Shown in pieces: positions 870 to 25,482 of a stretch of 31,954 nucleotides of DNA. The stretch is taken from positions 1 through 31,954 of the IMG/VR virus record IMGVR_UViG_3300034107_000661; one strand, given 5' to 3'. This DNA is from a virus. The stretch's first letter is position 1. Each line of letters opens with the position of its first letter. The notes under the pieces were generated by a model, which was given only the letters and a program-made list of their open reading frames with translations, was not told the origin of the DNA and did no database searches. A program made the translations under genes and the position numbers.

Positions 870-2321
870 TTACAGGGAGACAAGAACGCGGCCTGCGTTG
901 GGCTGTACGATCCGACCACCGCGACGAGCGCGAAGGACGAATTCGTACGCACCGTTTTTGTAAGCCGGTTGGTCGTTGACTTTGATGGTCGGACTGACCC
1001 GATCCAGCATGTAATACAACGACTTGAAATCAGCGTAATAAATAGCACGATTGCCAGTCGTGGCAAGATCTGCGACATTTTCAGAAATGATGATCGGACG
1101 CCCCAAAAGGCTACCGTTCAGCCAGGTGGATCCGCCACCGGGACTGTCACCGATGAATCCGTAATTCGGCATGAAGATCGGACGGCCCGCCGTGTCCAAA
1201 AGATTGGCGATCTTGCCCAGCGTGGTCGAATTCATCAACCATGCACCGTTCGTGCGGAACTGTTGCGGAGTGCCGTAGAACAGGGCTGAAAGGTCTTTGT
1301 ATGCGATCTTGTCGCCAGTCGATACAGTGCCTGTCACGGTTGTCAGTACGCTTGTTTCCGTCAGGCCATAAGGTTGACTCGAACCGGTTCCCGAAACGAT
1401 CGCAGCGTCAGTTGCAACCATCAAAGATTTTTGGAAAATATCGGGAATTAAGGTCGAAAGACCATAGGCGTTGTCTTCGAGGAGCGAGATCGAAAATAAG
1501 CCGTAGGCATAAACTTCGTTGACATTGATGTCGATCTGTTCGACCGTGAGGTTCGAGCCTTGATCGGTTGGGCTGGCTGGCGTTTCACCGCCCCATGTCA
1601 CCGTGACTGGATAGGCAGGGTACTTGCTGTCAGTCGTCTTGACCCGTGGAAAACGAGTCGTCAGAGCGGTTGTCGGGATGGTCCTGACGCTGTCTTGCAA
1701 CATGCCAGCCATCGGAGGTGTCATGATCAATTCTGACCACTGGATTGGCACCAGAGCAGCACCACCACCAGCTGTACCGGCGGCAACGCCTTCGGTAAAG
1801 GCTTTACGGACGATATCACCAGCCCCCGCGTAATCACGTCCACCGGATCGCATGAACTTGATGATTTCACGCTTGTATTCAGGAGTGCAAGCCTTCTCGA
1901 TCGTGTCGATCGAATAACCTTCGGAAAGGTATGCTTCGACTGTCGCGCCTTTTGGCTCGATTTCAGGCAGGAAAGCCTTGTTTACAAGATTAACCTTGTA
2001 CCCACCGTTAACCATGCCAGGCTGCGCCGTGTAGCCAGCCGGAGTGCCCTTGACATCGTAGGCCGATGCGGGTCGATTGGTGGCAGGAACTTGTGTCTCC
2101 CATGCGTTGTGGGCGGTGACGCTGGCTTGCAACTGGGTGCGGGAGGCGTCGATATCCTGTGACTTGGTGATAGCGGCACGGTTCGCAACTAGTCGCGATT
2201 GTACCGATGTCATTTCAGCCGCTTCTTCGGCGGTGTAACTGGATTTGGCGAGGAGTTCCGAAGCACGCGCCGAGAGGCTGGTGGCTTCGGACTGCAAAAC
2301 AGCAATCTCGGAATTAAGCAT
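870..2321 (-). CDS. Major capsid protein, HK97 fold, with N-terminal scaffolding (delta) domain
   Basis: The protein is 483 aa. Residues 1-60 are a Glu/Ala-rich coiled coil (SEIAVLQSEATSLSARAS...), as in the HK97 delta domain that is cut away by the prohead protease. The rest has the look of the phage_capsid family: an elongated E-loop-like region, a central TDAAIVSGTGSSQPYGLT segment, the WLMNSTTLGKIANLLD stretch, and a C-terminal beta strand with RARRGGRIVQPNAG. SD AAAAGG lies 7 nt before ATG 2321. The gene is separated from its cognate protease (9.6 kb) by about 7 kb of tail-fibre and secreted-protein genes, which is unusual. Family assignment is firm; the cleavage site was not determined. 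Confidence 0.93.
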   Translation of the reverse strand: MLNSEIAVLQSEATSLSARASELLAKSSYTAEEAAEMTSVQSRLVANRAAITKSQDIDASRTQLQASVTAHNAWETQVPATNRPASAYDVKGTPAGYTAQPGMVNGGYKVNLVNKAFLPEIEPKGATVEAYLSEGYSIDTIEKACTPEYKREIIKFMRSGGRDYAGAGDIVRKAFTEGVAAGTAGGGAALVPIQWSELIMTPPMAGMLQDSVRTIPTTALTTRFPRVKTTDSKYPAYPVTVTWGGETPASPTDQGSNLTVEQIDINVNEVYAYGLFSISLLEDNAYGLSTLIPDIFQKSLMVATDAAIVSGTGSSQPYGLTETSVLTTVTGTVSTGDKIAYKDLSALFYGTPQQFRTNGAWLMNSTTLGKIANLLDTAGRPIFMPNYGFIGDSPGGGSTWLNGSLLGRPIIISENVADLATTGNRAIYYADFKSLYYMLDRVSPTIKVNDQPAYKNGAYEFVLRARRGGRIVQPNAGRVLVSL

Positions 2322-2414: not shown

Positions 2415-3212
2415 TCACAACGCAAGTGCAGGTGCCGTGTCAGGCGTGATCGTTGCAATTGCCGAGACGGAATAGGCGTCGAAACCCCATCCTTGAATAT
2501 TCTTTTCGCACAACCACGCACGACCATTTTGACCCCATCGCGTGCCCCAACTGTTCTGCCAACGAATGAGCCATTGCCCATCTGGTGCACGTTTCATCCC
2601 TAAACCGCCCATCACAGCGTGGTTGTGCGAGCCTGAGCGGTTCGATGGGCATCCGTTCGCGTCCAATGCGTTGAAACCGGAATTGACTGGAACGCTGAAA
2701 TTAAACGGTCTTCGTAGTTGAGTTGCAACGCACAAATCGTCCCAAGTCAGGAGCGTCGTGCCGATTTCAATTTTGAACCGCTTGCAATCATTGCGTGCCT
2801 GTTGCTTGACTGAGGACGGGTTGATCGTGCCGAATGGAACCAACGAAGTCTCGCAAGTGCCTGACTTCTCCAAGAGTTGCAACGCCTCGGCAATGCTTGA
2901 CCCGGTATCCCAACCACGGCACAAGTCGGCATAAATCAGCCAGGGAGACAGTTCGATGTGTGGCTGACCGGCAATCCAGCGAGCCACTTCCAGCGATGTG
3001 GCTGCGGCGTGTCCGTTGCAGGCACCGAACTGGCCTTGATCTTTGATATTGATTGGGAAGTTGTCCGACTTCGTTAAGTCGAACTCCACCCATTCGCTTT
3101 GCGGGATGTCAGCCAGTGGCTGCGAACCGAGCTTGAGGCTGATGGACGGTGGGCGGTTGCCCATGCCACGCCAATCGTCCCCGAAACACGGGAATAGTTC
3201 GGGCTGGCTCAT
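2415..3212 (-). CDS. Papain-like (C1A) cysteine peptidase
   Basis: The protein is 265 aa. It shows the full papain active-site set: oxyanion Gln59 and nucleophile Cys65 in DQGQFGAC, His198 in NHAVMGGLG, and Asn220 in WQNSWGTRWGQNG. Spacing from Gln to Cys is six residues, as in papain. There is no obvious signal peptide or long propeptide; about 45 residues precede the catalytic domain. The start at 3212 forms an ATGA overlap with the stop of the upstream secreted protein gene. It sits at the end of a block encoding secreted and membrane proteins, just before the capsid. Possible roles are a virion-associated or lysis-related protease, or degradation of a host surface protein; the sequence does not say which. 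Confidence 0.88.
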   Translation of the reverse strand: MSQPELFPCFGDDWRGMGNRPPSISLKLGSQPLADIPQSEWVEFDLTKSDNFPINIKDQGQFGACNGHAAATSLEVARWIAGQPHIELSPWLIYADLCRGWDTGSSIAEALQLLEKSGTCETSLVPFGTINPSSVKQQARNDCKRFKIEIGTTLLTWDDLCVATQLRRPFNFSVPVNSGFNALDANGCPSNRSGSHNHAVMGGLGMKRAPDGQWLIRWQNSWGTRWGQNGRAWLCEKNIQGWGFDAYSVSAIATITPDTAPALAL

Positions 3213-3721
3213 TTGATCGCCTCCAAGATCGCCATAATATCGGCCAGATTGGCGGGTCGAATCACCTTGACCAGCTTACCGGATGCGTCCTGCAATATCA
3301 CACAAGGCGTGCCGGTGGATTGCAGCGACGCACGGAACCCAAGGCTGTCAACGTCCGATTCGGTTGCCAGATATGACCGGTAGTTGATCGCCTTGCGTTC
3401 GACCTCTGTTCTGAGGGCGGAATCGGTGCGCCACGCTGCCTGGTCGGGGTTGTCTGGGTCAACGATCACAGATAACCACTTGACGCCCGTGATGGGATCA
3501 GGGATCGGAATCGGGATCGGTCGTGGTTGTGGTCGCGGTGCGATATCGCCGGATCGGATTATCAACACTGTGCCGGACTGCTTGCCCACCAGGTAGGTGT
3601 TGCCACCATCGGTGATCGCCCAAGATGGTTCGGACATGGCTGGCAGGGAGGTTGCCACCATGTCAGCACCGTGAGCAGATGCACCGATCATAAGTAATCC
3701 GGCCAGAAATCGTCGCATCAT
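3209..3721 (-). CDS. Secreted protein with Pro-rich linker, function unknown
   Basis: The protein is 170 aa. Residues 1-19 (MMRRFLAGLLMIGASAHGA) look like a signal peptide. A small beta-rich segment follows, then an Arg/Pro and Ile/Pro linker around residues 62-76, then a helical and beta C-terminal part. The C-terminal piece GTPCVILQDASGKLVKVIRP has one Cys after a cis-Pro-like TP and faintly resembles a thioredoxin-fold C-terminus, but the CxxC motif is absent, so no function is assigned. SD GGGAGA lies directly before the start. The stop overlaps the papain-like protease start (ATGA), so the two are translationally coupled and may work together at the cell surface. Confidence 0.7.
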   Translation of the reverse strand: MMRRFLAGLLMIGASAHGADMVATSLPAMSEPSWAITDGGNTYLVGKQSGTVLIIRSGDIAPRPQPRPIPIPIPDPITGVKWLSVIVDPDNPDQAAWRTDSALRTEVERKAINYRSYLATESDVDSLGFRASLQSTGTPCVILQDASGKLVKVIRPANLADIMAILEAIK

Positions 3722-3960
3722 TCTCCCTTGTAAACGGCGTGCATCTGTGCCTTCTGACCGTCAATCAATTCGACCAGTTCGTCGGCGGAAATCGTGCCAG
3801 GCTCACCGGAGTCAAGCGTGTCAGCAATTCGCCTGAGCAATGCTGGCAATACTGACTGAATCAGCGGCACGGCTACCAGCCTGATCAGGGGCCAAAGGAT
3901 CGCGAATGGGATCACGGGGAACCCCATTTTATTTCGCTCGTCAGATGCGTTTGGTGTCAT
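3718..3960 (-). CDS. Small membrane-associated protein, unknown
   Basis: The protein is 80 aa. I chose ATG 3960 because it forms an ATGA overlap with the stop of the preceding gene; an upstream in-frame start at 4140 would lie wholly inside that gene. Residues 13-42 (GFPVIPFAILWPLIRLVAVPLIQSVLPALL) are strongly hydrophobic and could span the membrane or form an amphipathic hairpin. The C-terminal half is polar, with an acidic stretch (SADELVELIDGQK). It ends in an ATGA overlap with the secreted protein gene at 3721. It is part of the run of small envelope-directed proteins. No family was recognised; an accessory lysis role is conceivable only from context. Confidence 0.6.
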   Translation of the reverse strand: MTPNASDERNKMGFPVIPFAILWPLIRLVAVPLIQSVLPALLRRIADTLDSGEPGTISADELVELIDGQKAQMHAVYKGE

Positions 3961-4175
3961 TTGCATTTTCCGCCGCAACAGGTTTTGACAGGTCGGAGCA
4001 AGCGTCTTGCGTACTCTCGTCCGTAGGTCTTTTGCTTGTGTCCGTAAAATGCCAGCCACGCCGGTGGCCCATTGATGACAGTCACGGTGGTGGCAACTGT
4101 CAAGGATTCCTTGACAGTTGGACACTGACCGTTTTGGCACGCTTGAGCGGTGACGAAAAAGAGTTCTGCGAGCAT
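3957..4175 (-). CDS. Small Cys-rich secreted protein, unknown
   Basis: The protein is 72 aa. ATG 4175 was chosen because AAGG sits 8 nt upstream; a longer version from 4271 would overlap the holin-like gene. The N-terminus MLAELFFVTAQA resembles a short signal peptide. The mature part begins CQNGQCP and ends RPVKTCCGGKCK, giving five cysteines clustered at the two ends. Small secreted proteins with CxNGxCP starts and CCG-type ends occur in planctomycetes (recollection, not a search), which fits the inferred host. A 27-bp inverted repeat lies inside the reading frame (4094-4120), an odd feature for coding DNA. Confidence 0.5.
   Translation of the reverse strand: MLAELFFVTAQACQNGQCPTVKESLTVATTVTVINGPPAWLAFYGHKQKTYGREYARRLLRPVKTCCGGKCK
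4094..4120. repeat. Perfect 12-bp inverted repeat inside a small ORF
   Basis: The arms CAACTGTCAAGG and CCTTGACAGTTG are perfectly complementary and separated by only ATT. The loop is too short for a good RNA hairpin with all pairs formed, so a protein-binding palindrome is as likely as an RNA element. Confidence 0.7.
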
Positions 4176-4206
4176 GTGTTGAGCCTTGTTTTTGAGGATA
4201 TTAAGG

Positions 4207-4236
4207 GATGTTCCCGAAACAGATTTCGGGAACATC
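4207..4236. terminator. Strong 13-bp stem-loop in the gap before the small Cys-rich gene
   Basis: GATGTTCCCGAAA and TTTCGGGAACATC pair perfectly around a CAGA loop (UCUG on the minus strand). It lies between the holin-like gene stop (4243) and the next start (4175). No U-tract follows on the minus strand, so it may be a partial terminator, an attenuator or an RNA-processing site rather than a classical intrinsic terminator. Confidence 0.5.
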
Positions 4237-4242
4237 ACGAAG

Positions 4243-4515
4243 TCAATCTGGATCGGGAAAGCGTCGCTCAAGTTCTTTGAGTTTCAATTCCTTTTCGATC
4301 GCCATTTTTTCACGTTTGAGGCGTATCGAATAGATCGCCTGTATCACTCCCGCTGCCGTTGCCAGCATGGCGGGGATAGACCGAATGAATGCAATCACAA
4401 CTGATTCCTCCGGCTGAATTGCAACTTCTGCAACAGTCCAACCGGAATATAAGAACCAGATTGGGACAGTGAGAAGCGAATAATCAGCCGGCGTGGGAAT
4501 ATCAGTCGGTTGCAT
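4243..4515 (-). CDS. Holin-like small membrane protein with charged C-terminus
   Basis: The protein is 90 aa. Two hydrophobic segments, about residues 13-33 (SLLTVPIWFLYSGWTVAEVAI) and 38-62 (SVVIAFIRSIPAMLATAAGVIQAIY), are followed by a highly charged helix (RLKREKMAIEKELKLKELERRFPD). Two membrane spans plus a charged cytoplasmic tail match the general build of class II holins, but small phage membrane proteins of other function look the same. It is immediately downstream of another two-span protein gene (73 aa, 5-nt gap) and of a secreted nuclease. The family was not recognised beyond this architecture. Confidence 0.55.
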   Translation of the reverse strand: MQPTDIPTPADYSLLTVPIWFLYSGWTVAEVAIQPEESVVIAFIRSIPAMLATAAGVIQAIYSIRLKREKMAIEKELKLKELERRFPDPD

Positions 4516-4520
4516 TTATG

Positions 4521-4742
4521 TTAGCTCAGCGAGGGTGGGAGTTTATCGCCTGATGCGAGGTAGCGTGCAAGCTGTGCGACTGCAAATGTGATTGCAATTC
4601 CAAGCGGCGCGATGGTATCCACAATCTTAGGCAGATCCGCTTGGATCACGCCGACGGCTGTGATAGCCCCCACAATAGCAGCACGGATGATTGTTGAACG
4701 TGCTTGGTCGTAGTTGACTTGACCCAAAATATCTTTAATCAC
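4521..4742 (-). CDS. Holin-like small membrane protein
   Basis: The protein is 73 aa. An amphipathic N-terminus (MIKDILGQVNYDQARSTIIR) leads into a hydrophobic segment at about residues 21-36 (AAIVGAITAVGVIQAD) and a second at about 43-60 (IAPLGIAITFAVAQLARYL). The tail is short and polar. Size and the two spans fit a class II holin. The start overlaps the stop of the nuclease gene (ATGA at 4739-4742). With the 90-aa and 69-aa neighbours it gives three small two-span proteins within 1.5 kb, so which, if any, is the holin cannot be decided from sequence. Confidence 0.55.
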   Translation of the reverse strand: MIKDILGQVNYDQARSTIIRAAIVGAITAVGVIQADLPKIVDTIAPLGIAITFAVAQLARYLASGDKLPPSLS

Positions 4743-5278
4743 TTTTTTTCACCTTTCGTTGGTGGCCTCTTGCGAAACTCCCAAGGTGCAATCACATTGG
4801 GATCTGACCACAAGCCCCGGCTGGCTGTCTTGGCTTGTGTCTGAGCGGATTGTAATTGGGTATCGCGTTTGGCGTATTGTTCGTACCAGTGAGCAGCACC
4901 GATTTCAACCATTTTTGTGTTGATATCGACGCCGTCGCATTTGATGCGGGCGACGGTACGACCGTAAGTCTTGGCATTTGTTTCGGTAATTACCGTCACC
5001 TTCTTGCCGTAAACGAGTTGCGACAGCATGGCACGACTCGTAAAGCCGTAAGGCTGAGATCCCTTGTCATACTTGGTTTCGACCCGTTTTCCGTTCACGG
5101 TTTTGGTGCTGACTTTGATTTCAGGTGCGTCGATTCCATATAGACGGATTTCGATCTTATCCGGTGACCCCGACACCGTGACTTTAATCGTGTCGCCATC
5201 ATGCACGTCGGTGACGGTGGCATCGTATGGAGGTGGGAGAAATGCGAGTATGAGCGTGGCGAGCGTCGCTAAGATCAT
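4739..5278 (-). CDS. Secreted thermonuclease (staphylococcal nuclease-like)
   Basis: The protein is 179 aa. Residues 1-17 (MILATLATLILAFLPPP) are a signal peptide or membrane anchor. The SNase fold follows: Asp27 and Asp29 in VHDGDT, Arg45 and Asp50-Glu53 in RLYGIDAPE, and Arg107 in YGRTVAR. These correspond to the calcium-binding Asp21/Asp40 and catalytic Arg35, Glu43 and Arg87 of the S. aureus enzyme. The C-terminal GLWSDPNVIAPWEFR motif is also typical. It should cut DNA and RNA outside the cytoplasm in a Ca-dependent way. It is coupled by ATGA overlaps to genes on both sides. A role in host DNA breakdown at lysis or in DNA entry is inference. Confidence 0.93.
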   Translation of the reverse strand: MILATLATLILAFLPPPYDATVTDVHDGDTIKVTVSGSPDKIEIRLYGIDAPEIKVSTKTVNGKRVETKYDKGSQPYGFTSRAMLSQLVYGKKVTVITETNAKTYGRTVARIKCDGVDINTKMVEIGAAHWYEQYAKRDTQLQSAQTQAKTASRGLWSDPNVIAPWEFRKRPPTKGEKK

Positions 5279-5490
5279 TCTAAATCAGCTTTCTGGACTA
5301 GTAAAAGGTCGGATACATCAATCCAGGCCGTTTGTTCTCGCATGGACAGGAGCGGCCATTCCAGATCAAGAGCCGCGCGAACCGTTTCGGCATCGCGGGA
5401 ATCATCGTTTCCAGCCAATTGCAGATCATGGAGCTTGAGCAGGGATAAAAGGCAATTGCGAAAGTGGTTCGGTAGTTCAGGCTTGATCAT
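5275..5490 (-). CDS. Small soluble protein, unknown
   Basis: The protein is 71 aa. ATG 5490 was chosen because it overlaps the upstream gene stop (ATGA 5487-5490). Predicted mostly helical, with an acidic middle (GNDDSRDAETVRAALDLEWPLL) and no signal peptide, Cys pair or clear motif. It sits between a two-span membrane protein gene and the secreted nuclease gene and ends in an ATGA overlap with the latter. By position it could be a cytoplasmic partner such as an inhibitor of the nuclease, as for other toxic exported nucleases, but nothing in the sequence proves this. Confidence 0.6.
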   Translation of the reverse strand: MIKPELPNHFRNCLLSLLKLHDLQLAGNDDSRDAETVRAALDLEWPLLSMREQTAWIDVSDLLLVQKADLE

Positions 5491-5696
5491 GTGCCGTCCC
5501 CCTTTGGAACCGTAAAACAGTGGCCCAGCACAACGCCCATTCCTACGGCAAAGCCTAGGGATCGCTGATTGACTTCCCAGATTGCCTCGCTCCAGGTTGT
5601 GCCGCCTGACTGCCATTTGTAAAGGTCAACCAACAGCAGCACGATGGCTGCGGTGATTAACGCGATGAAATTTGTGGCAGCAGTCCTGAATTTCAT
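5487..5696 (-). CDS. Small two-span membrane protein, holin-like
   Basis: The protein is 69 aa. ATG 5696 was chosen for its ATGA overlap with the PEP-CTERM protein stop; the longer frame upstream lies inside that gene. Hydrophobic segments are at about residues 9-25 (NFIALITAAIVLLLVDL) and 45-60 (SLGFAVGMGVVLGHCF), joined by a short loop WQSGGTTWSEAIWEVN. The build matches small phage membrane proteins such as holins. It is third in a set of small membrane proteins in this block. Nothing distinguishes holin from antiholin or superinfection-exclusion protein. Confidence 0.55.
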   Translation of the reverse strand: MKFRTAATNFIALITAAIVLLLVDLYKWQSGGTTWSEAIWEVNQRSLGFAVGMGVVLGHCFTVPKGDGT

Positions 5697-6211
5697 TTCA
5701 CGCACCTTATGAGGATCGCCAAAGCTGACAGTATGCCAAGCAACCACGTACGAGGCTCTGGAACGGTGTTTCCAGTGATTTGGAGTGACAAGCCGGTTGC
5801 GTTCTGCGCCCACGCAATTGGGTTATCTGCCGAAATACCAAGGTAGTAAGTCGAGTTCGGGACCATCGGGATATCGAGGTGGAAAAATGGGATATTAGAG
5901 AACCCGATCAGGCTCACTTGGTCGGATGGAGTGTATTCCAATCGCATCTCGGTCATCCACCAGTCCACAGGCTTTTGCAGCAAGGGATCGTAAAATGACA
6001 GGTACAACGATCCAGTGAAACCGGCTGGCTTGTAGATATTGAGCCTGTAATCCCACAGTTCAGTGGAATCGCCAGAATTGAATGCCTGATATATCCACTG
6101 GTCTTTGCCTGTGTAGACAAGCCCCGTGATCGGCTCAGATAGGTTATCGAACAGGATCTCTGAACCTTGTGTTGGCAGTCCCAGAAATAACAGGAGCAGT
6201 AACTTTTTCAT
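5693..6211 (-). CDS. Secreted PEP-CTERM sorting-domain protein
   Basis: The protein is 172 aa. ATG 6211 starts a clear signal peptide (MKKLLLLLFLGLPTQGSE) and overlaps the preceding stop (ATGA). Residues about 20-145 are beta-rich with many Tyr/Trp and Gly and resemble secreted PEP-CTERM proteins with a jelly-roll-like body (inference). The C-terminus, from residue 150, is VPEPRTWLLGILSALAILIR followed by CVK: a VPEP motif, a hydrophobic span and a basic end. This is the canonical PEP-CTERM signal recognised by exosortase of Gram-negative envelope systems. The phage carries no exosortase in this window, so it would rely on a host enzyme. A surface role such as superinfection exclusion or adhesion is inference. 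Confidence 0.88.
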   Translation of the reverse strand: MKKLLLLLFLGLPTQGSEILFDNLSEPITGLVYTGKDQWIYQAFNSGDSTELWDYRLNIYKPAGFTGSLYLSFYDPLLQKPVDWWMTEMRLEYTPSDQVSLIGFSNIPFFHLDIPMVPNSTYYLGISADNPIAWAQNATGLSLQITGNTVPEPRTWLLGILSALAILIRCVK

Positions 6212-6762
6212 AGTGTCCCGTTTGCATTTGAAGGTGGTGCCCACAACACGGGCATTTCGGCGGCGAATTGGGCGGGTGTTGGGACGGCCCGTAACCCCGC
6301 CAGCACGTCTGATTCGATCTTGTACGCAACTTCGTAGCACTGCTGACGAAACGACTTAGCGGCAACCCCGTCAGCGGCCCATTGAGGCACCGGACTGTCA
6401 AACCATGTGATGGCCGATGAAATGGAGTCGAAGTCGCGTGGTGCAACCTGGGCGTCCATGTGCTGGTCTAAGAGTTGTTTGAGGATCGCTTTTTGTGACC
6501 TTAAATAAGCCATTTGCTCATCAGGTGTCAGCGTGACCACAGTCCATGTTTCGGTAACTTTCGATCCTACCAGTTTCAACGTCTGAAGCAGTCGAGTTGT
6601 CGCTGGATTGATTGTCGGCTTGACCGAAGGCGTGAACGGATAGAACCCGTATTGCGCGAGGATGTCAGCGTCCAGCGTGTGAAAGTTGCTCACGTTGGCG
6701 AAGGTCGTTGGCAACACTTGAGGTGATCCGATTTGACCGTTTTTGACTTGGCAGAATTGCAT
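6208..6762 (-). CDS. Tail-fibre-associated protein
   Basis: The protein is 184 aa. The N-terminus (QFCQVKNGQIGSPQVLPTTFANVSNFHTL) and the segment PSVKPTINPATTRLLQTL resemble short tail-fibre proteins that describe their own fields. The C-terminal part, LDQHMDAQVAPRDFDSISSAITWFDSPVPQWAADG, matches the helical module found near the end of many tail-fibre and fibre-assembly proteins, where a DxxAxxRxYDS pattern is followed by a Trp-rich helix. It ends in an ATGA overlap with the PEP-CTERM gene and follows the LamG adhesin. I infer a tail tip or fibre role; no exact family is assigned. Confidence 0.6.
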   Translation of the reverse strand: MQFCQVKNGQIGSPQVLPTTFANVSNFHTLDADILAQYGFYPFTPSVKPTINPATTRLLQTLKLVGSKVTETWTVVTLTPDEQMAYLRSQKAILKQLLDQHMDAQVAPRDFDSISSAITWFDSPVPQWAADGVAAKSFRQQCYEVAYKIESDVLAGLRAVPTPAQFAAEMPVLWAPPSNANGTL

Positions 6763-6770
6763 CTAGAGCC

Positions 6771-7445
6771 TCAAGAGTTGGGGTACGGGGCTGTTGGTAC
6801 GGTGATTGTGCGGGCGTATTTGGTGATGCGGAGGTCGTCAATGTAGCCGTTCGTGTAATATGCCGCCGCATCAAATCCTCTACCAATATAAATACTGTTT
6901 GCACCAGTCGTGAAATTTGTCGTGCTGGAGGCGCTATAGTAGCTTATTCCGTCGATGAATAGCCGTAGGGTTCCACTAGATCGGCTCGCCGCAAAATGAT
7001 ACCACTGACCACTTGTGATTGTTACGGACGACTGCCGCATCGTGCCGTCATAAAAAGCCAATTTCGACTGATATAACCCAAATGTAAACGGGGTTGCAGT
7101 AGCCGCCCCTCTGGTATCCAAGAAGGTTTGTTGGCTACTTGGATTTGCAGCAATGTAGACCCATGTTTCTATCGTGAAATCGCCCGTTCCAAACTGGAAG
7201 GAACTGTTTCCTGTCAGAGACAGATAACCTGTTGACCCATTAAAACTCCCGCTTGCCCCACCGTACTTGCTTTGTGTTGTTGAAATCGTTGCGGATGTTG
7301 CAGTCACCGTCAGTGCATTCGGCCCAGAGTCCACGAATGTCGTGCTGCCGTTCGTGCCATCCATGTGCAGGAGCAGAGAGACGCTGGAAAAGTATGGGTC
7401 GCCCGTTGCCGTCTTTGTGGCATTCCTGACAATGTTGGCTAGCAT
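6771..7445 (-). CDS. LamG/concanavalin A-like adhesin domain protein of the tail
   Basis: The protein is 224 aa. ATG 7445 is chosen because it overlaps the upstream stop in TAATG; a longer frame from 7583 lies inside that gene. Residues about 25-220 are a laminin G-3-like jelly roll: VSLLLHMDGTNGSTTFVDSG, ALTVTATSATI, YGGASGSFNGSTGYLSL, FTIETWVYI, GQWYHFAASRSSGTLRLFIDG, and YIDDLRITKYAR. This fold commonly binds sugars and is frequent in phage tail fibres. It lies in a run of fibre genes after the Mtd-like protein. Likely role is receptor recognition on the host surface. No catalytic residues of glucanases were identified. Confidence 0.85.
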   Translation of the reverse strand: MLANIVRNATKTATGDPYFSSVSLLLHMDGTNGSTTFVDSGPNALTVTATSATISTTQSKYGGASGSFNGSTGYLSLTGNSSFQFGTGDFTIETWVYIAANPSSQQTFLDTRGAATATPFTFGLYQSKLAFYDGTMRQSSVTITSGQWYHFAASRSSGTLRLFIDGISYYSASSTTNFTTGANSIYIGRGFDAAAYYTNGYIDDLRITKYARTITVPTAPYPNS

Positions 7446-7999
7446 TAGAAATTCTGCCCCCCAACGTAACCCTGCCAAATCGTTCCACCATCGCTCGAAA
7501 AGAATGCGAACGAATCCACCTTGCCAGAAGTCGATGTCAGCGTTGGAGCCGTGCCGCCAGACCACTTGATAGCCGCTGGCCAAGTCACTGCCCGTGCTGT
7601 GCCGTCAGCCGTCAGGATCAGCGTGAATGAGCCGCCGGAGCCGCTTGCAGGAGGGTTGCTGATCGTCAGGGTGGTGATCGCAGCGTTGAGCGACACCGTG
7701 AAGATATTGGATGTTTCGAGATTTAATGTCAGCACGCCAGATGAGATTGTTGGGCTGGAGACCGTTTCGCTGTAATCTCTGATCTTGGCTCGAATCAGTT
7801 CGGTGTCCAGCAGATTCTGCGGCCCCGTCAGATCGCTGTAGGCTTTCGCGGCTGCGTAACCGAGCGTTGTCCATGCCGTCCCGTTGCCTAGTTTGAACTT
7901 GCCGGTGTCGGTTTCATAGCCGATCTCGCCGGATGCCAGCGTGGTGTTGGCGGATGTCCATGCTGCGGCGGTGTCGCGTCTAACTTGAATTAGTGCCAT
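7445..7999 (-). CDS. Tail-fibre protein with Mtd-like N-terminal domain
   Basis: The protein is 184 aa. The N-terminus LIQVRRDTAAAWTSANTTLASGEIGYETDTGKFKLGNG is the short beta domain found at the start of the phage major tropism determinant and many fibre proteins, where it probably mediates trimer or baseplate attachment. The remainder is beta-rich with Gly/Ser/Thr runs (SNIFTVSLNAAITTLTISN, FTLILTADGTARAVTWPAA, and a terminal WQGYVGG), a repeat-like sandwich also common in fibres. Start and stop both lie in TAATG-type junctions. No reverse transcriptase or template repeat was seen, so there is no sign of a diversity-generating cassette despite the Mtd-like module. Confidence 0.8.
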   Translation of the reverse strand: MALIQVRRDTAAAWTSANTTLASGEIGYETDTGKFKLGNGTAWTTLGYAAAKAYSDLTGPQNLLDTELIRAKIRDYSETVSSPTISSGVLTLNLETSNIFTVSLNAAITTLTISNPPASGSGGSFTLILTADGTARAVTWPAAIKWSGGTAPTLTSTSGKVDSFAFFSSDGGTIWQGYVGGQNF

Positions 8000-9639: not shown

Positions 9640-10470
9640 TCACACCATTTCCATTGCAAGTGCCAGTCGTTGCGCCTCAATCACGCCCACCTCGTGCGAC
9701 TTCTTTTCCGGAACATCTTCCACTTCTTCTTCAGCCTCTTCGGTCGCATCCATCGGTGATTGACTGACCAGATTCAAGAGGTTTTCGATCTCTTCGGTGA
9801 CACTCGCCAAGACTTCCAACATCGCCTTTAGTTTCAACTCGTTTTTACCAGACAGAACGCGACCGGCTTTCAGGTCGGTTCCGACCATCTGGCGTGCCGA
9901 CTGTAGGGCACGATTGACAAAGTTCTTGAATGCTGGTGGGCAGGCGTCCCAACATTTAAATGCCATGATTCTGGCGTTGGAATTGGCTGGAACTGTCACG
10001 GGCGAAACCTCCAGTAAATTAGCCTTTTCGATCAATCGAATTGTTTTGGCGTTCTTTAGCCGTCTCAAGTCGTCCTCGTCAGGAGTGTATCCAGCCTTGT
10101 CCCAGATGGCTTTAAGTTCGGTCGGTGTAACATTGGACACCTTAAGCGGTTCCATGCCCACAGAGAGCATCTTGATGACGCCGTCACTGATCAGCGTCCG
10201 CATCTCTTTAGCGGCTGCGATGTCGCTGAATTTCGCTTTGACAAATAGCCCCTTGGAATCCTCCCAAGCGTCTGTATATTTGCCGAGCGGGGCTGACCAA
10301 TTGTGCATTGATCCGCCAATGAAGTTGTCAGACAAGAACGTTTTCAGGCAGTCCTGATAACACCCTGGCAAGACCACATCACCAGCCCGGTCAAGGCTGT
10401 AAAAGGTCGAAGCGTAGCCTTCAAAACCGCCTTGACTGGCCTTGACGGTGATCTCGGTAGTTTTGAGCAT
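9640..10470 (-). CDS. Prohead protease, HK97 family (S78-like)
   Basis: The protein is about 276 aa from ATG 10470, which has GAGG 8 nt upstream. An in-frame ATG at 10539 would add 23 residues and overlap the preceding gene by 20 nt; it is a possible but less supported start. Strand-rich N-terminal motifs GGFEGYASTFYSLDRAGDVVLPGCY, the MHNWSAPLGKYTDAWED region carrying the presumed catalytic His, and MLSVGMEPL with the presumed nucleophilic Ser are typical of the family. LLEVSPVTVPANSNARIM is the conserved C-terminal motif of the catalytic domain. The C-terminal tail is long and very acidic (EEAEEEVEDVPEKK). It processes the capsid delta domain, though the capsid gene is far downstream. Confidence 0.88.
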   Translation of the reverse strand: MLKTTEITVKASQGGFEGYASTFYSLDRAGDVVLPGCYQDCLKTFLSDNFIGGSMHNWSAPLGKYTDAWEDSKGLFVKAKFSDIAAAKEMRTLISDGVIKMLSVGMEPLKVSNVTPTELKAIWDKAGYTPDEDDLRRLKNAKTIRLIEKANLLEVSPVTVPANSNARIMAFKCWDACPPAFKNFVNRALQSARQMVGTDLKAGRVLSGKNELKLKAMLEVLASVTEEIENLLNLVSQSPMDATEEAEEEVEDVPEKKSHEVGVIEAQRLALAMEMV

Positions 10471-10519
10471 GGCGGCGGCCTCAGTGGGGTAAGTAATCAA
10501 TAACGGTTCAAGTGTATCA

Positions 10520-11374
10520 CTAATCGTCGATCGTGTCATCCCATTTAGTCGGTTGCTCGTCGTCGATCACTGCCGACACGCTACAACGGCAGCCGGGGTG
10601 CAGTGGAGGACACTGGATCGTGGCGTAATAATCTTCGGACGCTTGACCCGTTGCAAACGGTTGACCCTTTTTGACCAGTCGTGGACGCCCGTTGATGGTC
10701 CCGACCCGGTGGCACTGTTCGCAGGCGTCGGAGGACAACATCCAGCGATATCCGGCGACCGTGTCCATGTCCTCGGTTCCAGCGAGAAAACCGTAATTCT
10801 GGCCACGCGATGATTCGGTGATCGCGATCCGGCGTGCCTTCCAGCGTGCCATTTCGCCGAAATATTTGGCCAGGCGATCGGTCTTATCTTTGAGCGTGTC
10901 GCCCGCCTTTTGACCCTCAAGCAGATCCTGTTGCATTTGCTTGATGAGCCGTTGGGCCTCGTCAGCGGTGCTGGCTTGGATGTCATCAATCGTGGACATC
11001 GCGAGCCGGATTTCGTGCCGTTTGATCTGGTCATAAACCGAGACGTTGCGGATATCCCAGTCGGCCACATCCTGCTGACCTAGCCTGACTCGTGCTTTTC
11101 GTGCCGACGCGTCGAAGATGCCCAAGATGTTTACGACGAACTGTTTCAAGAGCGGATCAGCGATGTCGTGCGTGATGTGTACCCGCATCGGGTTGGACAT
11201 CTGTTTCCGGTCGTAACCTGATGCGGTCTCAAACTTGATCCGGTAGATCGGCTCCAATCGCCACCAAACCGCAGCGAGCAATTTGGATACCGATTGGAAT
11301 ATTCGCTCCTCGTCTTTTACCTTGACCGGATCAGGCTTCAGACTCAACACCGATTTGGCTTTGCTCTTGGCCAT
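10520..11374 (-). CDS. Phage Mu F-like head morphogenesis protein
   Basis: The protein is 284 aa. ATG 11374 was chosen for the strong SD GGGAGG 8 nt upstream; it overlaps the portal C-terminus by 44 nt. The N-terminal region is helical; residues about 170-285 carry a Mu F signature: RRIAITESSRGQNYGFLAG, then SSDACEQCHRVGTINGRP with a CxxC pair, and a final CPPLHPGCRCSV. The two cysteine clusters and the HPxCRC motif suit zinc binding and are typical of the family. It probably sits inside the prohead near the portal. The gene overlaps the portal gene and precedes the protease, a standard order. Confidence 0.9.
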   Translation of the reverse strand: MAKSKAKSVLSLKPDPVKVKDEERIFQSVSKLLAAVWWRLEPIYRIKFETASGYDRKQMSNPMRVHITHDIADPLLKQFVVNILGIFDASARKARVRLGQQDVADWDIRNVSVYDQIKRHEIRLAMSTIDDIQASTADEAQRLIKQMQQDLLEGQKAGDTLKDKTDRLAKYFGEMARWKARRIAITESSRGQNYGFLAGTEDMDTVAGYRWMLSSDACEQCHRVGTINGRPRLVKKGQPFATGQASEDYYATIQCPPLHPGCRCSVSAVIDDEQPTKWDDTIDD

Positions 11375-17135: not shown

Positions 17136-17540
17136 TCAGGGGATTGTCGATAGTAGTCTGTCCCTCACGTCTAGTTCGAGTGTGTCTACAGCGTCTGGGT
17201 CGTTCAGGACCGCGTCCTCACCGTATCTCGCAATCGCAGCTGCGTCATATGCCGCCGCCGCTTCTTTGGCCGTGTAGTAGCCGTACCGATGATTCCCGTT
17301 GCCGATATGGACGCCAAACGATCGGTGCGACCTGCAATAACTGATGCCAATCGTCCCGCCGCTCCTGATCTTGTGCTGCTGGTGATGTTCAACGATCGTC
17401 CCTAGCCGCCTGATCAGTTCGCCGCTGCTTGGCACCTCTTTATCAAGGTCGCGATCGCCTGGAAAGTTGCTGTCAGGGTTCTCGCTTTTGTACTGGCGGA
17501 CGATCGCGATACGTTGGTTTGTCAGGGCGGCGAGGGTCAT
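17136..17540 (-). CDS. AP2-domain DNA-binding protein
   Basis: The protein is 134 aa. Residues about 62-112 form an AP2/ERF-like domain: GISYCRSHRSFGVHIGNGNHRYGYYTAKEAAAAYDAAAIARYGEDAVLN, ending in the usual EAAxAYDxAA helix and GxxAxLN. In phages this domain is usually the DNA-binding part of an HNH homing endonuclease. Here the nuclease part seems absent; the N-terminal half is helical with several His but no HNH motif. It may be a free-standing regulator or a remnant of an intron-type endonuclease. It starts in an ATGA overlap with csrA. Confidence 0.88.
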   Translation of the reverse strand: MTLAALTNQRIAIVRQYKSENPDSNFPGDRDLDKEVPSSGELIRRLGTIVEHHQQHKIRSGGTIGISYCRSHRSFGVHIGNGNHRYGYYTAKEAAAAYDAAAIARYGEDAVLNDPDAVDTLELDVRDRLLSTIP

Positions 17541-17734
17541 GATGTTTTCCCTGTTTCAACTGCATTCATCATCTTTTTCGCCCACACAATCCGCCGATCA
17601 ATCACAACCGACTGCGGAGCGGTGAAACCCAGCTTGACCGCACCGTGATGTGATTCCGTCACCGTCAGAACGGTTTCGATTCCGTTCACCGAAATCACGA
17701 TCTCTTCGCCGATTTTGCACTTTAGAACTAGCAT
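17537..17734 (-). CDS. csrA: CsrA-family RNA-binding regulator
   Basis: The protein is 65 aa, the usual CsrA length. It starts MLVLKCKIGEEIVISVNGIE, matching the conserved MLIL.RK.GE.I.I pattern; then VTVTES-like strand, GAVKLGFTAPQSVVIDRRIVW, equivalent to VRIGI.AP..V.V.R.E. The RNA-contact residues near the N-terminus and the R near position 47 are conserved in kind, although position 6 (Arg in many) is Cys-Lys here. ATG 17734 has a very strong SD GGAGG 9 nt upstream, itself containing GGA, and a GC-rich hairpin in the leader. It likely controls translation of phage or host mRNAs. A CsrA homologue on a phage is uncommon. Confidence 0.92.
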   Translation of the reverse strand: MLVLKCKIGEEIVISVNGIETVLTVTESHHGAVKLGFTAPQSVVIDRRIVWAKKMMNAVETGKTS

Positions 17735-17763
17735 CTGCTGCAACCTCCATGTTGTGAGTGAGT

Positions 17764-17788
17764 GCCGGGGGTGTATGAATCCCCCGGC
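17764..17788 (-). promoter_or_regulatory. csrA leader hairpin
   Basis: GCCGGGGG and CCCCCGGC pair perfectly (8 bp) around a 9-nt loop ATTCATACA (minus strand). A GGA lies at the loop edge (GGGGGATTC). The hairpin is about 30 nt before the csrA start codon and upstream of the GGAGG SD, an arrangement known for CsrA self-regulation. Confidence 0.6.
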
Positions 17789-17910
17789 GCGAGTGTGATT
17801 GGTCAACTCCCCTTTAGCCCAAGTGATCTTGCCCGGCTGGAGCCGGAGAAACAGGATCGGAATCAACTAATCAGGAGTCAGTCAGCACTGGTTATCGGCC
17901 AGCCTGACAA

Positions 17911-24163: not shown

Positions 24164-24247
24164 CCCGTCCTCCCCCTTTAAACTCGCAATCTGTTGGTGA
24201 CACATGGGTTACACTTTGAGAAGATCTGAATCGACGACCTTGCAGAA

Positions 24248-24289
24248 CTCCGGAGCAAAAGGTCGCATGTTCGAATCATGCCGGGTGTA
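24248..24289 (+). other. attP core matching the 3' half of tRNA-Arg(CCG)
   Basis: The 42 nt read as anticodon loop CTCCGGA (anticodon CCG), 3' anticodon stem GCAAA, variable loop AGGTC, T-arm GCATG TTCGAAT CATGC, acceptor CGGGTGT and discriminator A. The 5' half of the tRNA is missing, and the preceding CAGAA does not pair with GCAAA, so identity seems to begin in the anticodon loop, a usual crossover point for tyrosine integrases. It lies about 105 nt before the integrase gene. Confidence 0.85.
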
Positions 24290-24331
24290 TTGCGGTAAGT
24301 CTTTAGGATTAAGGCTTTTAAGACAAGACGT

Positions 24332-24359
24332 TAAGTGTTCGAACTCTCCGGAATACTTA
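24332..24359 (+). repeat. Inverted repeat between attP and integrase
   Basis: TAAGTGTTC and GAATACTTA pair over 9 positions (one G-U) around a 10-nt loop, just before the integrase start. Could be an arm-type integrase site or an RNA hairpin. Confidence 0.4.
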
Positions 24360-24393
24360 GACAACAATGTTGAAAATCTTCACCGGTGGCGAC

Positions 24394-25482
24394 ATGGCAC
24401 GCCCACCTAACCCTATACCAAAGTACACTTTGCATAGTTCGGGACGCGCCCGGATCTATTTTAACAGCGTGTACAAGTATCTGCCAGGGGCGTTCAACTC
24501 GCCCGAATCACGGCAGGCGTTTTATGAAATGTGCGAAATCATCCACGCAACCGGTGATTGGCCCGTTGAGGTCGTGCCTGAAAAGCCACTAACGGTCATG
24601 GAGCTGGGCATCAGGTATTTGGCTCATTGCGTCGGCTACTACGGCCAAAAAAAGAACGGTCGAACCGAGGCCGTCAACCTGCGTTACGCGGTGGATTCGC
24701 TGACTGATCTATATGGAAGTCGGCTCGCTGGCGAGTTCGGTCCACCACAGTTAAAGGCTGTCCGTAAGTCACTCATAAAAAAGGGACACGTGCGGAGATC
24801 AGTCAACAAACGAGCCACCCAGATAATCGCTTGCTTCAAATGGGCAGTCGAGGAAGGACTGGTTGAACCGGACGTGTGGCAGCGGCTGTCCGCCGTCAAA
24901 CCAATTGCACCTGGGCGAGAGGGTGCTATCGACAATCCAGCGGTCGAACCGGTGACAAGTAGTCAGTACGAACTGGCCCTGCCCTACCTTCCCGCCGGTG
25001 TAAAGATCGCCATTCAGGTGCAACGACTGACCGGTATGAGGTCGAAGGAACTGCTGTCCATGACTCCGCAGGATTGCGACATGTCCCGCGATCACTGGAT
25101 ATATCGGCTCGAAAAGCACAAGACGGTAGAGCACACCGGCGTTGCTTATGTCCTGATCCCGGCGCCGGCTGTCGAGTTGTTGCAGGCCTGTATGCCCAAG
25201 ACATTTTGTGACAGGTGGTTCCCCTGGAGCGTTGGGCATCAGCAAAAGTCTGTCGCGCGTGCGTGCCTGTCCGCTGGTGTACCGCACTGGTATCCACACC
25301 AGTTACGTCATAATCTAGCGACCGAGATTAACGAAAAACTAAATATTGAGGCGGCTCAAAAGGTGCTCCGTCACACCGATCCACGCATGACGCGCAGGTA
25401 CTCTAAAGAGACTGTGGAAGGGCTTTTAAGCGTTGCCGACCAACTCTATCCCGATGTTAATTTAGGGGGGGGGGGGGGGTAG
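24394..25482 (+). CDS. int: Tyrosine integrase
   Basis: The protein is 362 aa. ATG 24394 (MARPPNPIPKYTLHSSGRARIYF) matches the usual start of planctomycete-type integrases; ATG 24367 would add nine residues. Catalytic set: Arg216 in LTGMRSKELL, His302 and Arg305 in PHQLRHNLAT, His327 in VLRHTDPRM and Tyr336 in RRYSKET. The N-terminal part is the arm/core-binding region (AVNLRYAVDSLTDLYG). It recombines attP with a host tRNA-Arg gene. The last five codons are GGG, from a 15-G run (25465-25479) directly before TAG, so its length may vary. Confidence 0.95.
   Translation: MARPPNPIPKYTLHSSGRARIYFNSVYKYLPGAFNSPESRQAFYEMCEIIHATGDWPVEVVPEKPLTVMELGIRYLAHCVGYYGQKKNGRTEAVNLRYAVDSLTDLYGSRLAGEFGPPQLKAVRKSLIKKGHVRRSVNKRATQIIACFKWAVEEGLVEPDVWQRLSAVKPIAPGREGAIDNPAVEPVTSSQYELALPYLPAGVKIAIQVQRLTGMRSKELLSMTPQDCDMSRDHWIYRLEKHKTVEHTGVAYVLIPAPAVELLQACMPKTFCDRWFPWSVGHQQKSVARACLSAGVPHWYPHQLRHNLATEINEKLNIEAAQKVLRHTDPRMTRRYSKETVEGLLSVADQLYPDVNLGGGGG
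25465..25479. repeat. 15-G homopolymer at the integrase C-terminus
   Basis: Fifteen consecutive G's encode five glycines before the stop TAG. A change of one base alters the C-terminus: 14 G's extend the frame through AGA GAT AAG to a later TAA; 16 G's end soon at TGA. Either a slippage-prone tract or a sequencing/assembly artefact. Confidence 0.85.

Follow-up and report, generated by a model that had tools for sequence, protein, structure and literature searches.

To our knowledge, phage lysis of bacteria is thought to require either cleavage of peptidoglycan or a block of peptidoglycan synthesis. Usual places for lysis genes include the stretch beyond the tail fibres and that before the terminase. 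Here we analyzed the linear virus record IMGVR_UViG_3300034107_000661 (31,954 bases, hereafter the window), which holds most of the genome of one temperate tailed phage. On its minus strand, ten short genes (block 6211-2415) fill the space from the last gene of the fibre region to the capsid gene and form a translationally coupled late operon. We read the core of this block, with a probability of about 0.52, as a phage lysis cassette in which a papain-like cysteine protease of family C1A takes the place of the endolysin as the envelope-opening enzyme.

The holin-endolysin-spanin cassettes of Gram-negative temperate phages share with this locus a similar position, small membrane proteins and an exported Pro-rich partner. 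In contrast, here a C1A protease would replace the endolysin, no recognised holin or spanin family is present, and the Pro-rich partner has a predicted thioredoxin fold. PeiP and PeiW (family C71) are phage pseudomurein endoisopeptidases. As presented in PMC2989375, they too are cysteine peptidases (Cys-His-Asp), with which phages lyse a wall other than ordinary peptidoglycan. They differ in peptidase family, cleave pseudomurein isopeptide bonds, carry wall-binding repeats and act on archaeal hosts.

The papain-like protease and its exported partner

Two adjacent genes stand at the downstream end of the block:

2415..3212, minus strand: C1A papain-like cysteine protease (PF00112), 265 amino acids (aa), no evident signal peptide or pro-domain
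3209..3721, minus strand: exported Pro-linker protein ('prolink'), 170 aa, coupled to the papain gene by an ATGA overlap

The papain-like protease had been named in an initial annotation made from the sequence alone, and the C1A family profile bears this out: the match to PF00112 (E=3e-8, 34.4 bits) is well over the family cut-off of 20.7. The papain profile also matched falcipain and cathepsins in the PDB, with a best E of 4.5e-8. Residues Q59, C65, H198 and N220, which we take from papain itself to be the oxyanion Gln and the catalytic Cys, His and Asn, are unchanged across 13 aligned sequences, and the median ratio of nonsynonymous to synonymous substitution rates (dN/dS) of 0.08 (28 pairs) indicates purifying selection. 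The AlphaFold model of the papain, with a mean predicted local distance difference test score (pLDDT) of 34, was unusable for judging its fold. No recognised peptidoglycan-degrading domain was found in this protein, whose only Pfam match is Peptidase_C1; since such a domain is what defines endolysins, we do not file the system in any endolysin family.

The Pro-linker protein consists of a signal or anchor segment, a small beta region, a Pro-rich linker and a C-terminal domain. From residue 81 onward its AlphaFold model reached a mean pLDDT of 91-95 per 10-residue block, and the C-terminal domain aligned with thioredoxin 6mos over 81 residues (VIA-align Z 9.3, root-mean-square deviation 2.6). 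Similarly, Foldseek returned DsbD and thioredoxins as top matches (E about 5e-3), and one of the two nearest viral relatives of this domain, both 40-41% identical, is annotated as a thioredoxin-domain protein. A search of PDB sequences with the Pro-linker alignment as query gave chance-like matches only. As modelled, the C-terminal domain is thus a thioredoxin fold, and it is predicted to be redox-dead, the CxxC active site being absent from all 14 aligned sequences. The median dN/dS of the Pro-linker gene was 0.17 (36 pairs).

The other core genes

Four further small genes accompany the pair:

3718..3966, minus strand: 82-aa protein, one hydrophobic segment by hydropathy scan
3957..4175, minus strand: 72-aa Cys-rich, exported-looking peptide (4-Cys), short hydrophobic N-terminus
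4521..4742, minus strand: 73-aa two-span protein, holin-like by topology only
5487..5696, minus strand: 69-aa small membrane protein with one strong span, plus a weaker one seen by eye, holin-like by topology only

Every open reading frame (ORF) named in the initial annotation was found on the minus strand, although its inventory was incomplete, having overlooked the 82-aa gene at 3718-3966. Most block genes are coupled by ATGA or GTGA overlaps (6211/6208, 5696/5693, 5490/5487, 5278/5275, 4742/4739, 3721/3718 and 3212/3209). Three two-span membrane proteins had been described; by hydropathy this holds for 4521-4742 only, the proteins of 5487-5696 and 4243-4515 having one strong and one clear span, respectively. 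Holins are small and have one to four spans, a size and topology shared by the 4521-4742 protein with two spans and the 5487-5696 protein with at least one.

Conservation and mobility of the core

With the papain alignment as IMG/VR query, a second scan gave 74 related loci. Gene content was counted in 74 loci (L002-L026 and L056-L104, with L105-L107 excluded), 35 of which cover the full interval from the fibre-region gene (6208..6762 family) to papain. All 35 carry the papain, its Pro-linker partner, the 82-aa family and the Cys-rich peptide; the last two gave family alignments, in which the 4-Cys peptide shows a conserved CQxGQC and, at its C-terminus, C...CK. In 34/35 the 73-aa two-span protein has a homologue, its place in L021 being taken by an unrelated two-span protein. 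The 69-aa membrane protein, whose family was also aligned, was present in 33/35. We thus define from the sequences a core of two small membrane proteins, the 4-Cys peptide, the 82-aa protein, the Pro-linker protein and the papain, which recurs nearly everywhere.

The pairing of the last two is tight. The Pro-linker gene lies upstream of papain in all 53 loci having more than 1.5 kb of upstream sequence; these 53 loci, like the 35, do not count as independent events because they are kin to each other and some are near-duplicates. The Pro-linker family is present in 29 of the 33 records tested, including the 595-kb phage LR756511; the four misses are Thermoanaerobacterium phage THSA-485A and three large contigs. 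In 8/53 loci the two genes are separated by 485-1175 bases, and all five intervals inspected contain cargo ORFs, four of which end in PLLEAIK:

L004, 7298-7786: PLLEAIK-ending cargo gene between Pro-linker and papain
L008, 4949-5905: the same
L012, 3135-4313: the same
L016, 1119-1769: the same

The Pro-linker protein itself ends in ILEAIK; the interposed cargo resembles it at the C-terminus, and the overlap with the papain start is therefore preserved. Cargo thus behaves as if it settled only where translational coupling survives.

The core also appears to move as one unit among unrelated phages. The papains of the window and L002 are 97% identical, with capsid proteins at about 27% and terminases at 40% over the parts aligned, and 59 downstream segments sorted by similarity fell into nine groups, which we regard as genome backgrounds. 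The cassette follows the fibre region in most mapped records and lies 1.4-4.4 kb before the terminase in G035, G036 and G037. Conversely, when loci were retrieved by capsid, papain was carried by 14/14 with enough upstream sequence, 2/16 being too short.

Search for a peptidoglycan hydrolase

By the account of one survey (PMC12596118), 97.4% of double-stranded DNA bacteriophages have at least one recognisable lytic protein. The initial annotation had seen no peptidoglycan hydrolase in the window, and Pfam likewise matched none among the 10 block ORFs and 42 others. It had also proposed looking for an endolysin in the missing part of the genome. The close relative G001 (terminase 99% and papain 94% identical to the window) has ends that overlap by 84 bases and bridges the junction of the window's end and start; in size and position the junction genes resemble those of head-tail and tail proteins. 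Pfam gave 22 families for 49/53 of its ORFs plus papain, none of them a peptidoglycan hydrolase, so that no endolysin family turned up across the gap and papain was the sole candidate for an envelope enzyme.

Four other relatives were scanned against Pfam, one more ORF being skipped in each. G005 (54/57 ORFs) showed no peptidoglycan hydrolase among 25 of 29 families, and none was found in G007 (46/48), G035 (39/47) or G037 (36/49); in these four, too, papain was the one candidate envelope enzyme. A 930-aa ORF of G007 that stood outside the Pfam scan had no match in the PDB. ORFs dropped from the relatives' scans lie mostly on the strand opposite a longer gene. All five relatives have terminal overlaps, as do eight records in total.

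C1A papains in other phages

In THSA-485A an annotated GH25 endolysin comes first, followed by a C1A papain and then by a small membrane protein that has one strong span. Its papain is 28% identical to that of the window and similarly has a small membrane protein in its row, but this phage has the GH25 endolysin, and the Pro-linker/thioredoxin-fold partner was not found there. Endolysin and papain of THSA-485A share a Pro-rich linker plus a C-terminus of about 25 residues (score 65), a score reached by 0/1000 full-length and 0/2000 C-terminal shuffles. This gene order and the shared C-terminus place a papain in the lysis cassette of a phage with an unrelated host. Used as IMG/VR queries, the papain of THSA-485A and that of LR756511 each gave one locus, which for THSA-485A was its own copy; the endolysin-papain neighbourhood hence rests on one phage.

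In LR756511, which is uncultured, the Pro-linker and papain genes overlap as in the window; both in this phage and in the IMG/VR locus L126, a C1A papain overlaps or directly adjoins an exported Pro-linker protein. What comes after the pair here, however, is not two-span proteins but more exported proteins, of which one matches cytochrome c weakly. In the LR756511 locus (L053, 5108-10429) the pair opens the run of exported proteins, one of which has a CxxCH end and sub-threshold cytochrome matches.

Proposed lysis scheme and points against it

The idea of lysis by papain and small membrane proteins gains support from the conserved core, its movement as a unit, the failure to find any classical endolysin family in the five end-overlapping records and the papain of THSA-485A. 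The initial annotation had suggested that papain-like protease plus holins may form an atypical lysis module, perhaps suited to a protein-rich planctomycete envelope. The part of this proposal that gains support is the papain and small-membrane-protein subset, a conserved and mobile core; the accessory genes are sporadic and fall outside it.

According to this scheme, the operon, with the overlaps seen in its sequence, would be translated late in infection as a chain of coupled genes. The proteins of 4521-4742 and/or 5487-5696 would, to judge by topology and position, act as holins. Papain has no evident signal peptide; made in the cytoplasm, it would then cross the membrane lesion and cut envelope protein. 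The exported thioredoxin-fold protein would wait beyond the inner membrane, where the tight pairing suggests a docking partner, a chaperone or a spanin-like tether. The 4-Cys peptide and the 82-aa one-span protein might possibly be further envelope disruptors, while the staphylococcal-nuclease homologue (SNase), PEP-CTERM-like, 90-aa and 71-aa proteins of the block would ride along as passengers.

Several observations weigh against a papain-driven lysis cassette. The small membrane proteins of 4521-4742 and 5487-5696 match no Pfam family, and their best PHROG hits (E=0.47 and 0.011, function unknown) are not significant, so the holin label is a guess from topology. A diverged endolysin may have escaped Pfam, and a few ORFs per scanned relative were left out. 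In an open-access literature search we found no phage C1A papain with demonstrated lysis activity. Nor do all phage C1A papains stand in lysis cassettes: on the large contigs L105-L107 a papain 27% identical to that of the window lies between portal-like and prohead-protease-like genes without a Pro-linker gene, and in Phage DP SC_2_H4_2017 the papain is placed among replication genes. The L105 papain (9710-10735) is on a 142-kb contig, and the compared stretches of L106 and L107 are identical.

The papain of THSA-485A may also be a helper, because a normal endolysin is present beside it. By extension, an unrecognisable peptidoglycan hydrolase or an inhibitor of cell-wall synthesis could do the main work in the window's lineage with papain assisting. 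The GH25 gene next to papain in THSA-485A and the several core genes without a recognised family favour such an auxiliary role, but the conserved core holds no enzyme-sized candidate besides papain and its partner, and we consider this explanation quite unlikely.

Lastly, the cassette of the window's lineage also travels with tail-fibre genes, which fits a role in entry. Papain and its exported partner might act at infection, virion-borne or linked to the fibres, by cutting an envelope protein layer or processing the fibres. In 35/74 loci the cassette comes directly after the fibre-region gene and moves with it, and an Mtd N-terminal domain and a LamG domain occur among the window's ORFs. Against this stand the position near the terminase in G035, G036 and G037, the grouping of the THSA-485A papain with an endolysin and a small membrane protein, and the signal or anchor of the partner and the small membrane proteins, which suit a host membrane better than a virion. 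An entry protease is accordingly rather unlikely in our view.

Neighbouring genes and capsid maturation

On the minus strand the late genes follow the order terminase, portal, Mu-F protein, S78 prohead protease, tail fibres, block 6211-2415 and capsid protein. Three of them bear on the borders and role of the cassette:

6208..6762, minus strand: protein at the end of the tail-fibre region, upstream border of the cassette, labelled 'fibre assembly' by position only
870..2321, minus strand: HK97-type major capsid protein (PF05065, E=9e-39), downstream neighbour outside the cassette
9640..10539, minus strand: S78 prohead protease (PF04586, E=2e-18 among window ORFs), the ORF being assigned by sequence and position

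In the window about 90 bases separate the end of the papain gene from the start of the capsid gene, and papain lies among head genes in L105-L107, as might be expected if it cleaved head proteins during capsid maturation, a role that by the initial annotation would refute its lysis idea. The window has a separate S78 prohead protease gene, and G001, G005 and G035 also have one, G007 having a scaffold-protein match instead; papain is thus not needed for capsid maturation. Moreover, it lies near the terminase and distant from the capsid gene in G035-G037. Near-identical papains (97%) accompany capsids sharing about 27%, with no co-variation, and on this and the separate S78 gene we rejected papain as the prohead protease, a role that we regard as very improbable.

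The Mtd N-terminal (PF18454) and LamG-like (PF13385) domains belong putatively to fibre genes at 7445-7999 and 6771-7583. A phage-borne CsrA homologue is encoded at 17537-17866 (PF02599, E=8.6e-10), and G001 and G005 have CsrA too. Next to the integrase, the DNA of ORF 24204-24410 resembles the 3′ end of a tRNA gene (TTCGAATC) and is a possible attachment site; ARAGORN detected no tRNA there.

Accessory genes and lysogenic conversion

The remaining four genes of the block are present in a part of the 35 full-interval loci:

4243..4515, minus strand: 90-aa membrane protein, charged C-terminus, one clear span; 7/35 loci
4739..5278, minus strand: exported SNase; 17/35 loci
5275..5490, minus strand: 71-aa soluble protein; 1/35 loci
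5693..6211, minus strand: 172-aa exported protein with a PEP-CTERM-like C-terminus; 6/35 loci

The earlier identification of SNase was upheld by PF00565 (E=2.8e-21). That of a PEP-CTERM protein was not: the motif (VPEP..., a hydrophobic stretch and a basic end) is seen by eye only, the window protein had no match in NCBIfam, and a weak PEPxxWA-CTERM match of one relative stays under the cut-off.

The block had alternatively been viewed as a lysogenic-conversion set, that is, cargo altering the surface of the lysogen. An integrase is present in all 15 mapped records, the pair heads a run of exported genes in LR756511, and cargo ORFs sit in the five inspected Pro-linker-papain gaps of at least 485 bases (8/53 loci), all compatible with such a module. 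When tested for sporadic occurrence, however, only the SNase, PEP-CTERM-like, 90-aa and 71-aa genes were sporadic, whereas the core was not (papain in 14/14 capsid loci) and is embedded in the late structural operon, sharing its strand, with the core genes mutually coupled. The conversion idea therefore fits these four genes, whose best reading from their distribution is that they are passengers; as an account of the core we find it unlikely.

Host and significance

GTDB genome scans with the papain and the terminase alignments found no prophage. Terminase matches to phages were all below 60% identity (best about 30%), and the integrase matched no plasmid. A weak hint at the host comes from LR756511, where a cytochrome c-like domain beside the pair matches PSCyt1 below the threshold. 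By the account in PMC5814848, the wall of planctomycetes was for a long time described as proteinaceous and free of peptidoglycan, yet several of them have since turned out to contain a peptidoglycan-like substance, so that even a planctomycete host would leave the target of the papain unsettled.

Taken further, the lysis reading could mean that widespread temperate phages have a papain-type protease as their sole lysis enzyme for opening the envelope, with an exported thioredoxin-fold protein, itself redox-dead, holding it, since the load-bearing layer of their hosts would be protein. We put this forward tentatively, as possible but doubtful. If true, lysis by papain alone would be another route beside peptidoglycan cleavage in phages of bacteria, with SNase and the surface protein as optional passengers. 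A C1A-protease lysis cassette would show another way into the bacterial envelope, would make the load-bearing layer of the hosts testable and would explain the apparent lack of an endolysin in such phages, and the tight pairing of papain with a thioredoxin-fold protein would offer a new annotation marker for such cassettes in metagenomes.

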